Shown here: piece after piece, positions 8,522 through 14,719 of the stretch
How the letters are laid out: every line of letters starts with the position of its first letter
Position numbering within the stretch: the first letter of the stretch is position 1
Assembly: GCF_030817495.1 (NCBI RefSeq)
Contig: NZ_JAUSZK010000001.1
Coordinates: 6,224,001 to 6,288,000, forward strand
Direction: 5' to 3'
Origin: Streptomyces sp. V3I7
GTDB lineage: Bacteria; Actinomycetota; Actinomycetes; Streptomycetales; Streptomycetaceae
Length of the DNA: 64,000 nucleotides
Notes under the pieces: model-generated
What the model saw: only the letters and a program-made list of their open reading frames with translations
Databases searched by the model: none
What the model was told of the DNA's origin: nothing
Made by a program: the position numbers and the translations under genes

Positions 8522-11359
8522 TCACGCCATCTGCCGGCGGACCAGCTCGTGCAGGCGGCCGCTCGTGTCCGCCAGGAGCTCGGCGGGCGGGCCCTGCTGG
8601 GCCACCTTGCCGTCCTGCATCACGATGACGCGGTCCGCGTCCAGCACGGTCGACAGCCGGTGGGCGATGACGATGCGCGTGGCGTTCAGCTTGCGCGTGC
8701 TCTCGATGACCGTGCGCTGGGTGTCGTTGTCCAGCGCACTGGTCGCCTCGTCGAAGAACAGGATGCGCGGACGGCGGATCAACGCCTGGGCGATCATCAG
8801 ACGCTGACGCTGGCCGCCCGAGATCGCGCCGCTGCCGGCGACGATCGTGTGCAGCCCCATCGGCATGCGCTTGATGTCCTCGGCCAGACCGGCCAGTTCG
8901 GCCGCCGCCATCGCCTCCTCCGGCGTGTACGGCTCGGTGCCGCAGATGACGTCCAGGATCGAGCCGTTGAACGGCTGCGCGTGCTGGAGCACCACACCGC
9001 ACTGCCGGCGCACCGCCGACTGGTCGAGCGCCGCCAGGTCCTGGCCGTCGTACAGCACGCTGCCCGAGACCGGCTTGTCGAAGCCGATCAGCAGCCGCAG
9101 CAGCGTGGACTTGCCACAGCCGCTCGGGCCGACGATCGCCACGAACTCGCCCTGACGCACCTGGAAGGACACGTCGTCGAGCACGAGCGGACCGTCGTCG
9201 GCGTACCGGAAGGAGAGGCGGCGGGCCTCGATGGCGCCCGAGAGGAGGCCGGGGCGGGTGCTCGCCGTACGGACCTCGGGGGTCGCCTCCAGTACCGGGC
9301 GGATCTCCTCGAACAGCGGCAGCGCCGCCACCGCCGAGACGAACGAGCCCGTCAGCTGGGTGACCGCGGTGAGCACCATCGTCACCGACGTGCTGAAGGT
9401 GAGGAACGCGGACGCCGACATCGAGCCCCTCGCCGGACCGGCCAGCAGCATGAACATCACCAGGGTGACCATCGGCAGGTACACCGAACCCAGCACCGTG
9501 GTGAGGTTCTTGATGCGGCCGACCTTCTGCTGGAGCTCACGGCTGCGCGCGAACTCGCTCGCCCACGCCGCGTACGCGTAGTTCTCCGCCGCCGCGACCC
9601 GCAGCTTCGGCAGCCCGCGCAGCGTCTGGAAGGCCTGGTTGTTCAGCTTGTTGCTGAGTACCACCAGGCGCCGCTGCCAGCGCACCTGCCACAGGCCGAG
9701 GCCCAGGAACACCGCCGCGATGACCACGAGCATGCCGGTCGCGGCCAGCGCCATCGGCACGCTGTACCAGTACAGCAGGAGCAGGTTCATCGCGCCGATG
9801 GTCACCGACTGGGCGATGGTCGGGGCGAGGCCCGCCAGCAGCCGCCGGATCGAGCTGATGCCCATGGCCGCGCTGGCCAGTTCACCGGTGGAGCGCTGCG
9901 TGAAGAACTTCGTCGGCAGCCGCAGCAGCCGGTCCCACACGGCCGGCTGGAGAGCCGCCTCGATCCGGCCCTCCAGCCGGAGCATGGTCAGGTTCTCCAG
10001 CAGCATGAACGCCGCCGCCACGACCCCGCTGATCATCACCGCCACACAGACCTGCGCGATCAGCCCCGTCTGCGCCTTCGGCACGTACTGGCCGAGGATC
10101 TTGCCGGTCGCGATCGGCACCAGCGCGCCGATCACCACCGTCACCAGTCCGGCGAGCAGCAGGTTGAACAGGTCGCCGCGGTTGCCCTGCATGCTGAACC
10201 GCAGCAGGCCGAACGGGCTGAGCTCCTTGTCCGGCAGCGGGCGGTAGAACATCACCGCGCGCGGCTCGAACTCCTCCGCGTTCGCCTTCTCGATCGGCGT
10301 CTCACGACCGGTCGACGGATGCACGGCCACATAGCCGCCGCGCCGCCACAGCAGCGCGACCGGCGCCCCCGACAGGGCCCGTTGACCGACCAGCGGCCCG
10401 GCGTTGTCCCGCCACCAGGTGCCCATCAGACGGACGGACCTGGTGCGCACCCGCGAGGCGACGGCGACCCGCTCGACCGGGTCGATGCGTTCGCTCTCGG
10501 TGCCGCTCTGCGCGGGCTCGGACAGCTCGATCCCGGCCGCCTGGGCGACCAGCCGGCACGCCGCGTACGTGGCGTCGGCGTCCGCGGCGGTGGCAGGCCG
10601 CGACGAGCGCTTGCCGATGGAGGCGAGCAGCGTCTGGTCGGCCTGGACACGGACGGCCTCACCGGCCTTGATACCGGCCGCCGTTCGCGTCTCGTGCGTG
10701 CGCTCCAGCTGCTCGATCCAGCGGTCCAGCGTGGTCAGCAGCCGGTACTGCTGGTCGACCAGGCTCTGCCACAGCGCCGGGTCCATCAGCAGGTCGGCGG
10801 CCGCCTCGGCGCCGTACATCGAGCCGTACTGGACGCTGCCCGGGGGCACCTGCATCCAGAAGACGTCGTCGTCCGTGACGTCGGCTGCGCCCTCGGTGGC
10901 CATCGGCGCCTGGAAGAGGACCGCCAGTCCGCGGCCGACGCCCAGGGCGAGGGCGTACTCCAGCGGGCTCGACGCCGGCGGGACGTACTGCGGGTTGCCG
11001 TACGCGTCGTACGACCAGGTCTGGGTGCTCGGCTCCTGGTACAGCTCGCGCAGGTTGATGCGGCGCACCGCGCAGTCCCGCAGCGGGCGGGCCACCAGCG
11101 TGTGCTCGGGGCCGGCCACCGGGCCGAGCAGCAGCGAGCCCGCCTCCAGCCGGCCGAGGTGGTGCCAGTGGCCCTGCTGCACGGCGTCCACCGCGAACAG
11201 GTCCAGGGCGCCGGCCGTGACCAGCCACAGCACCTGCGGGCCCTCGAGGTCGAGGCGGTTGAAGCCGCCGCAGTCGATCGGGGTGCCCAGCGTGCCGAGC
11301 GCGCCGATGACGAGGTCGCCGCCGTACCCCTCCTGGTAGCCCTCCTGAACAGTGGTCAT
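8522..11359 (-). CDS. NHLM bacteriocin-system ABC transporter (permease + ATPase, second exporter half)
   Basis: This 945-residue protein is the last gene of the peptide-export operon. The first 400 or so residues form a large cytoplasmic region with a cNMP-binding-like part and no peptidase motif. Residues about 410-700 are a six-helix type-1 exporter membrane domain. The ATPase domain carries Walker A 'GPSGCGKST', signature 'ISGGQRQR' and Walker B 'ILFFDEATSALD'. This layout is that of the NHLM bacteriocin system ATP-binding protein, which lacks the C39 domain and is found beside the C39-bearing partner. The ATG 11359 follows the upstream gene's TGA by one base, with GGGAG as ribosome site, so translation is probably coupled. 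It likely forms a heteromeric exporter with its neighbour. Confidence 0.9.
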   Translation of the reverse strand: MTTVQEGYQEGYGGDLVIGALGTLGTPIDCGGFNRLDLEGPQVLWLVTAGALDLFAVDAVQQGHWHHLGRLEAGSLLLGPVAGPEHTLVARPLRDCAVRRINLRELYQEPSTQTWSYDAYGNPQYVPPASSPLEYALALGVGRGLAVLFQAPMATEGAADVTDDDVFWMQVPPGSVQYGSMYGAEAAADLLMDPALWQSLVDQQYRLLTTLDRWIEQLERTHETRTAAGIKAGEAVRVQADQTLLASIGKRSSRPATAADADATYAACRLVAQAAGIELSEPAQSGTESERIDPVERVAVASRVRTRSVRLMGTWWRDNAGPLVGQRALSGAPVALLWRRGGYVAVHPSTGRETPIEKANAEEFEPRAVMFYRPLPDKELSPFGLLRFSMQGNRGDLFNLLLAGLVTVVIGALVPIATGKILGQYVPKAQTGLIAQVCVAVMISGVVAAAFMLLENLTMLRLEGRIEAALQPAVWDRLLRLPTKFFTQRSTGELASAAMGISSIRRLLAGLAPTIAQSVTIGAMNLLLLYWYSVPMALAATGMLVVIAAVFLGLGLWQVRWQRRLVVLSNKLNNQAFQTLRGLPKLRVAAAENYAYAAWASEFARSRELQQKVGRIKNLTTVLGSVYLPMVTLVMFMLLAGPARGSMSASAFLTFSTSVTMVLTAVTQLTGSFVSAVAALPLFEEIRPVLEATPEVRTASTRPGLLSGAIEARRLSFRYADDGPLVLDDVSFQVRQGEFVAIVGPSGCGKSTLLRLLIGFDKPVSGSVLYDGQDLAALDQSAVRRQCGVVLQHAQPFNGSILDVICGTEPYTPEEAMAAAELAGLAEDIKRMPMGLHTIVAGSGAISGGQRQRLMIAQALIRRPRILFFDEATSALDNDTQRTVIESTRKLNATRIVIAHRLSTVLDADRVIVMQDGKVAQQGPPAELLADTSGRLHELVRRQMA

Positions 11360-11360
11360 C

Positions 11361-14481: not shown

Positions 14482-14500
14482 AAGGTCAACGCTCTGGGAA

Positions 14501-14719
14501 TCAGAGGCCGGAGACCAGGCCGGTGACCGGGGCGGTGCTCACACCGGTGACACCCTCGACCGTGCCGACGACCTGGCCGACGACGGGCGTCACGCCGGGG
14601 GCAACGCCGTCCACCAGGCCGGTGACGGTGCCGACGGCGTTCAGGGACAGACCGCCGGAGACGTTGTCGAGCTCGGCGTCGGAGATCTCGACGGTCTCAA
14701 CCTGGGGGGTGGAGTTCAT
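14501..14719 (-). CDS. Double-glycine-leader precursor peptide with Cys-free Val/Gly/Thr-rich core
   Basis: This is a 72-residue peptide starting at ATG 14719 behind GAAGGGAAG (7-base spacing). The leader of 23 residues has the pattern 'EISDAELDNVSGG' expected for C39-peptidase substrates (class IIa-like or type-A2 leaders). Cleavage after Gly-Gly would free a 49-residue core. That core contains 14 Val, 10 Gly and 7 Thr, a few Pro, Asp and Glu, and no Cys, Lys, Arg, His or aromatic residue. It has a loose V-G-x-V periodicity. It is the first gene of the export operon. No modifying enzyme is nearby, so the product may be an unmodified secreted peptide. Its activity (bacteriocin, signal or surface peptide) is not known. 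Confidence 0.85.
   Translation of the reverse strand: MNSTPQVETVEISDAELDNVSGGLSLNAVGTVTGLVDGVAPGVTPVVGQVVGTVEGVTGVSTAPVTGLVSGL

Follow-up and report, generated by a model that had tools for sequence, protein, structure and literature searches.

What does a peptide exporter of Streptomyces carry out of the cell when the precursor encoded beside it has no cysteine and no modifying enzyme lies close by? This question is raised by a four-gene operon on the minus strand (positions 8522-14719) of a 64,000-nucleotide stretch of the genome of Streptomyces sp. V3I7 (contig NZ_JAUSZK010000001.1, positions 6,224,001 to 6,288,000), referred to here as the window. The operon consists of a precursor peptide gene followed by genes for an HlyD-like adaptor, a C39 peptidase/ATP-binding cassette (ABC) exporter (ABC1) and a second ABC protein (ABC2); a preliminary description of this DNA had recognized these four genes, and their positions, strand and two exporter families over cut-off bear it out. 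In the explanation preferred here, to which as a whole we would give about an even chance, a dedicated exporter (C39-ABC, ABC2 and HlyD adaptor) is encoded together with its resident substrate, an unmodified peptide; it would also serve remote genes in trans, with a shared promoter, a hairpin within the operon and a role of the peptides at the cell surface.

The precursor gene (14501-14719, minus strand) encodes 72 amino acids, divided by translation into a 23-residue leader ending in ...ELDNVSGG (14651-14719) and a 49-residue core (14504-14650; stop codon 14501-14503). It is recognized by the leader profile A1 (E 1.6e-16), and no library family matches it over cut-off, the best being CTB family bacteriocin (0.0084, NCBIfam) and Bacteriocin_IIc (0.012, Pfam). 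The adaptor gene (13586-14392, minus strand; 268 amino acids) is over the HlyD_3 cut-off and reaches 146.5 bits against a cut-off of 156.2 for TIGR03794 (E 1e-42). ABC1 (11361-13589, minus strand) contains a Peptidase_C39 domain (5.9e-36), scores 1025.2 bits for TIGR03796 (cut-off 853.3) and has a Walker A motif together with ECGAA, HYVVY and NDP, which we take to hold the C39 catalytic residues. ABC2, an NHLM-type ABC permease/ATPase (8522-11359, minus strand), scores 887.1 bits for TIGR03797 (cut-off 709.4), and its likely start is the ATG at 11359, at the junction with ABC1. Because the adaptor is short, divergent and under the TIGR03794 cut-off, the exporter is best termed NHLM-like rather than a full NHLM member. 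The genes had been said to overlap or touch, which holds for HlyD and ABC1 (4 shared bases, GTGA) and for ABC1 and ABC2 (a gap of 1 base, given that start) and fails for the precursor and adaptor genes, spaced 108 bases apart with a conserved hairpin inside; a convergent gene lies 4 bases beyond the end of ABC2. It is highly likely that the peptide is exported and that the C39 domain would cleave the 23-residue leader after Gly-Gly.

The association of peptide and exporter was followed across 199 genomes of the same genus. At E<=0.01 the precursor occurs in 140 of them; ABC2, at E<=1e-150, is present in 147, of which 143 exceed the family cut-off; all 140 precursor genomes have ABC2, and none of the 52 genomes free of ABC2 has the precursor (Fisher 1.2e-40, not corrected for phylogeny). 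Seven genomes have ABC2 only, and six of these (all except G120) were opened: in four the operon includes a leader gene that has diverged further (L141, L142, L144, L152), one has a different short open reading frame (ORF) there (L140), and one shows no leader gene (L143). Named loci, the best 80 of 238, were also fetched via the precursor, whose presence there is thus given by construction. Adaptor and ABC1 relatives occur at all 80, as do ABC2 relatives, but the lowest ABC2 match has only 33% identity and could be ABC1 where the contig is truncated. Recurrence of precursor, HlyD and ABC1 relatives at 80/80 loci argues that the operon is not a chance arrangement.

The leader is not confined to the operon. 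A leader-only search with profile A1 was made in 61 genomes, 42 of which have ABC2 (one match each). It returned 60 leader genes (E<=1.6e-6) in 41 genomes, every one with ABC2, so that leader genes are present in 41/42 ABC2 genomes vs 0/19 genomes without it; matches in a further 24 rows, all weaker (0.185 to 0.98), were taken as chance. Thirty-nine of the 60 genes lie at most 7 kb from the exporter; a further 10 share its contig at distances of 0.5-8.5 Mb, and the remaining 11 lie on different contigs. An exporter-adjacent leader gene is present in 39/42 ABC2 genomes, and about 19 of the 60 genes are counted as remote; the count is approximate because the leaders of G001 and G002, near contig starts in genomes with no near leader, may be split operons. 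Near and remote leader genes occur together in 15 genomes. The seven genomes reached via named loci have one leader gene in six cases and two in S. coelicoflavus, a close relative of S. coelicolor, the second being L185. The source genome has its second leader gene at contig position 4573787 (L005:8788-9018). This gene follows a Ku gene, at a distance of about 1.66 Mb from the exporter, and encodes 76 amino acids, with the leader ...AELDNIAGG and a different core. In its surroundings (L005:7237-15174) there is a DNA-repair pair, Ku/LigD, on one side, and on the other a region containing a PIN-like gene (just under the Pfam cut-off) and a phage capsid gene.

By eye, at least four families can be told apart among the remote cores. 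The idea that remote precursors have exporters of their own was not supported, with no exporter gene in the surrounding 11-19 kb at 10/10 remote loci; around these same loci, one small ORF group recurs at 3/10 and other groups are common to L168 and L169 only. The exporter of the operon would also act in trans on the products of remote genes that have this leader and a different core. Presence of the same leader and, as described below, the same promoter-like box on remote genes suggests one exporter serving a scattered set of peptides.

In the window, the box GTGCTTTGATCC (14852-14863, minus strand) lies 132 bases before the precursor ATG and can be read as a putative extended -10 element (TGCTTTGAT). 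The TTGG at 14881-14884 (minus strand) is a candidate -35 element, the window's copy of a conserved [TC]TGG that precedes the box by about 20 bases, and farther up a conserved block beginning TGTGAAGAAG (14931-14971, minus strand), seen as a footprint over 81 upstream regions, may be an activator site. In 27 aligned upstream regions (both leader genes of the source genome, 20 second copies elsewhere and 5 further operon copies), [TC]TGG precedes GTGNTTTGATCC by about 20 bases in most, with a TGTGAAGAAG-like block farther up. The exact box GTGNTTTGATCC occurs only twice in the source genome (6.55 Mb, two contigs), 132 and 127 bases before its two leader genes, and its reversed control pattern has zero copies there. 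Across the 61 genomes, 35 of 49 exact boxes sit 41-140 bases before a leader gene, and the reversed pattern gives 5 matches overall. More distant operons retain traces of the box: with at most one mismatch it is found in 5/16 divergent operon upstream regions vs 1/480 shuffled sequences, and several further divergent operons have GTGCTTACATCT-like variants, with nothing close at L151. The box would be the extended -10 element of a shared promoter, and near and remote leader genes would be co-expressed via this promoter containing GTGNTTTGATCC.

Several observations weigh against the preferred explanation. The test of precursor-ABC2 nesting ignores kinship among the genomes, the exact box is absent from 25/60 leader genes, 14/49 exact boxes lie elsewhere than before leader genes, and one remote core family has a Cys. 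A regulon united by a shared leader and a shared promoter is very probable. Nine of the 14 boxes lying elsewhere were opened. In two genus genomes (L156, L159), an exact copy of GTGCTTTGATCC lies about 250-275 bases before a gene for an isopenicillin-N-synthase-like oxygenase (named from sequence), possibly an extra regulon member. L155 and L157, from two genomes, have a copy of the box in similar surroundings and no leader gene.

The preliminary description had proposed a search for precursor homologues and their neighbours, and this search gave 638 homologues at E<=0.01 from 642 candidates, the best 120 being listed; named relatives are nearly all Streptomyces. As had been described, translation of 14501-14719 gives a core without Cys, Lys, Arg, His or aromatic residues (C, K, R, H, F, W and Y are all absent). 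Composition is kept, with no Cys, Lys, Arg, Trp or Tyr in 121/121 cores (window and 120 listed homologues; His in 5, Phe in 1) and no Cys, Lys or Arg in 81/81 operon cores (window and 80 loci). Over these 81 loci, as pair averages without tree correction, mean identity is 0.93 for the leader and 0.85 for the core, and the ratio of nonsynonymous to synonymous differences (pN/pS) is 0.29 and 0.59, respectively. Both parts are thus conserved among close relatives, where a loss of conservation had been named as a sign against the peptide, and in divergent lineages the leader persists with the core sequence altered.

Whether the core is modified can be considered from the gene neighbourhood. Many homologues carry the NCBI name 'type A2 lantipeptide', a label that is contradicted by the missing Cys in all the cores just counted and by the missing linked enzyme: no LanM/LanC-type gene lies in the operon, and the LanKC fragment near 17/80 loci, part of a separate cluster at the one locus opened, has no match in the window. 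Only the operon genes are universal among the 80 loci. Frequent neighbours, at loci some of which end at contig ends, are a relative of an S1 protease (78), a hotdog gene (33) and an AHSA1-type gene (28); 18 divergent loci (L135-L152) have no hotdog or AHSA1 match within short flanks of 1.1-2.8 kb upstream, and where about 8 kb of upstream DNA was available, for 16 of the divergent loci, the protease relative is seen at 2/16, 5-6.5 kb away, and the hotdog gene at none. The S1 protease is therefore not supported as a part of the system, being found at 78/80 close loci but 2/16 divergent ones. In the window, the 8 kb upstream of the operon hold a hotdog gene, SpoIIE-type phosphatases and the S1-family protease with its alpha-lytic prodomain (15657-17183, opposite strand to the operon); the earlier claim that no modifying enzyme is found nearby stands over these 8 kb.

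A peptide of the ribosomally synthesized and post-translationally modified class, altered in trans by an enzyme encoded elsewhere in the genome, for example by dehydration of Thr/Ser or by glycosylation, would fit the Thr/Ser-rich core and the lanthipeptide label, and candidate enzymes exist: a single LanC-like gene about 838 kb from the operon in the source genome, and a class III lanthipeptide synthetase fragment about 10 kb upstream at 17/80 loci. However, 81/81 operon cores have no Cys to offer, and the synthetase fragment is unmatched in the window and in about 8 kb upstream of the 16 divergent loci. In the one locus opened (L175:5274-10332), a RamC-type synthetase stands with an ABC gene and a short precursor of its own, which contains Cys and looks like SapB by eye. 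With the fragment missing from the window this synthetase was rejected as a modifier of the peptide. We consider modification in trans improbable, the least likely of the alternatives weighed here. A linked modifying enzyme at homologous loci had been foreseen as the observation that would overturn the reading of an unmodified peptide, and none is consistently linked at the 80 loci and 16 divergent upstream regions, the genome-wide search covering LanC-like genes only, a scope that leaves a point against this reading. The peptide is likely, with good though not full confidence, to be unmodified.

The physical character of the core was considered next to its composition. The sample comprised the core of the window, another of S. 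violaceoruber type and 14/16 divergent operon cores (L149 and L150, near-duplicates of L148-type cores, were left out), with 6/21 remote cores added for charge; net charge, His not counted, is zero or below in 22/22. Across the 16 operon cores hydropathy has its maximum at 100-105 degrees (pooled z 7-8 vs shuffles), helix-period hydropathy reaches p<0.05 in 9/16, and the beta period does so in 0/16. An amphipathic helix in operon cores is therefore plausible. Against it, 7/16 operon cores miss p<0.05 singly, the 16 cores are not independent, a helix period is missing from the six remote cores tested (their power is largest at 165-180 degrees, with z up to 2.9), and AlphaFold2 on the precursor (39 sequences; mean predicted local distance difference test score, pLDDT, 51.8) gave no usable fold, so the helix claim rests on periodicity. 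In the preferred explanation, the peptide that the exporter would release into the cell envelope is about 49 residues long, anionic, rich in Gly, Val and Thr, unmodified and probably an amphipathic helix.

Part of this system is already described in Streptomyces coelicolor. A hydrophobic peptide without Cys, SCO0753, was reported in 2019 in PMC6629963, the available part of which suggests its export by SCO0754-0756, and was compared by its authors with hyphal coat proteins and SapB. SCO0753 was the most overexpressed gene in a strain with dispersed growth in which a morphology-affecting two-component system is activated, with log2 fold changes of 6.3 for the peptide gene and 4.4 for the adaptor gene, and its operon was almost silent in the sco5282/5283 null mutant (PMC6629963). 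The two-component system is tied there to secretion and envelope genes. In the parts of other reports available, SCO0753 is up-regulated in another regulator mutant (PMC5733086), sco0756 is up-regulated in a mutant without polyprenol phosphate mannose synthase (PMC5882110), and SCO0756 is given as bacteriocin biosynthesis and is slightly down (PMC6414726). Gene order, with an exopolyphosphatase-like gene on the downstream side, and the 77-amino-acid length suggest that the window operon is the ortholog of SCO0753-0756. The exopolyphosphatase-like gene, so named from sequence and from SCO0757 in the available text of PMC6629963, lies downstream of the operon in 41/80 loci and does not adjoin it in the window. 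One point against the preferred explanation is that detection of the peptide by mass spectrometry is not reported in the available text of PMC6629963.

The preliminary description had proposed an unmodified hydrophobic peptide with a surface, antimicrobial or signalling role. The exporter-linked, Cys-free and probably unmodified peptide stands, and the antimicrobial option is weakened, since none of the cores analysed is cationic and an immunity gene is missing from the operon. An unmodified class II-like bacteriocin, inserting in the membranes of competitors through a GxxxG-rich hydrophobic helix, would be suggested by the double-Gly leader and C39 exporter, by 6 GxxxG motifs in the window core and by the weak Bacteriocin_IIc and CTB matches noted above, both of which are under cut-off. 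Yet the 22/22 cores are not cationic, no extra gene that could confer immunity lies in or next to the operon (neighbour gene calls >=70 amino acids), where the overlapping or touching genes and the convergent neighbour leave no room for one, and the gene is present in 140/199 genus genomes, with a core pN/pS below 1; we regard a bacteriocin as unlikely. The antimicrobial inference of PMC13047742, as far as its available part goes, came from a BLAST match to a protein labelled 'type A2 lantipeptide', which may belong to the present family.

A set of exported signalling peptides, with cores sensed by the producer or by its neighbours, would fit the presence of up to several different cores per genome behind one exporter and one type of promoter, as well as the two-component control indicated for S. 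coelicolor in the available literature. However, hydrophobic cores of 49 residues whose sequence shifts between lineages at constant composition fit a physical role better than recognition by a receptor, and no receptor or kinase is found among the conserved neighbour groups at the 80 loci (read by eye, some tested with hidden Markov models). Signalling is slightly less likely again than killing. The reading favoured over a bacteriocin is therefore that of a self-directed, surface-active envelope peptide, given a charge of zero or below, the lack of an immunity gene and envelope-linked two-component control. The peptides would act on the hyphal surface of their own producer in a surfactant or coating role, for which the anionic surfactant peptide PSM-beta offers a comparison; this function may be right, with a chance somewhat short of even.

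The space between the precursor and HlyD genes holds a hairpin (14449-14481, minus strand; 14-bp stem, 5-base loop) without a U run. In an alignment of 17 sequences (window, 10/80 close loci and 6/18 divergent loci), a stem of 13-14 pairs is kept with 95% of cells paired, double-sided changes occur at 7/13 pairs, 0/500 shuffles reach the covariation score, and the signal collapses on sliding; on the other side, 37/500 shuffles do as well in the number of further pair types. Rfam on 14400-15150 gave nothing but a snoRNA match far under its cut-off. The larger rise of the peptide gene than of the adaptor gene in S. coelicolor (6.3 vs 4.4 log2, in the available text of PMC6629963) fits, without proving, a partial terminator or processing site, by which the hairpin would hold the peptide transcript above that of the exporter.

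Altogether, these data can be drawn into a genus-wide proposal, which we put forward tentatively and as less probable than the surface role alone: a regulon in which one C39 exporter, several unrelated unmodified anionic peptides at dispersed loci, one leader, one promoter motif and an envelope-linked two-component system would act together in remodelling the hyphal surface. If the regulon reading is true, an unstudied system of secreted peptides exists in most Streptomyces, with its exporter, export tag and promoter defined and a candidate regulator at hand, and it is testable in the model strain S. coelicolor. Such a system bears on the setting of mycelial clumping and surface properties, which are relevant to fermentation.

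The system can be compared with known ones. SCO0753-SCO0756 have the same order as the window (peptide, HlyD, ABC, ABC) and a hydrophobic Cys-free peptide, and the 77 amino acids of SCO0753 correspond to the 71-amino-acid form plus 6 residues, as in gene calls of 77-amino-acid relatives (e.g. P0019). Remote leader genes, the shared box and the hairpin are not reported for them in the available text of PMC6629963, and no description of remote leader genes or the box was found in the accessible parts of the open-licence literature on such peptides and exporters. The peptide and its presumed exporter were thus already known, and nesting, remote leader genes, the shared box and the covarying hairpin are added here; the preliminary description included neither the published S. 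coelicolor ortholog nor the remote leader genes with other cores nor the shared box. Among cassettes of the NHLM/NHLP type (TIGR03794/03796/03797; Haft 2010, PMC2887384, as far as available), whose genomes are described as having from one to 12 precursor copies each, the window has ABC1 and ABC2 over cut-offs and an adaptor just below. Unlike NHLP systems, its precursor has no NHLP or Nif11 leader match at E<=0.01 (assuming that these models are in the library, in which only NF038167 matched) and no conserved linked modifying enzyme. Similarity to CTB bacteriocins (NF038167) is weak, reaching 16.3 bits where the cut-off is 32, and the match is confined to precursor residues 8-28, at the leader end. 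The class III surfactant peptides SapB and AmfS are likewise hydrophobic peptides that Streptomyces secretes and that are linked to the surface of its hyphae. They are lanthipeptides made by a RamC-type enzyme, whereas the window peptide has neither Cys nor a linked enzyme. Cyanobacterial double-Gly bacteriocin clusters, in the available part of PMC3140520, likewise combine a C39-ABC exporter and HlyD with, in some groups, a peptidase-free extra ABC protein, and precursors distant from the cluster are mentioned there as well.

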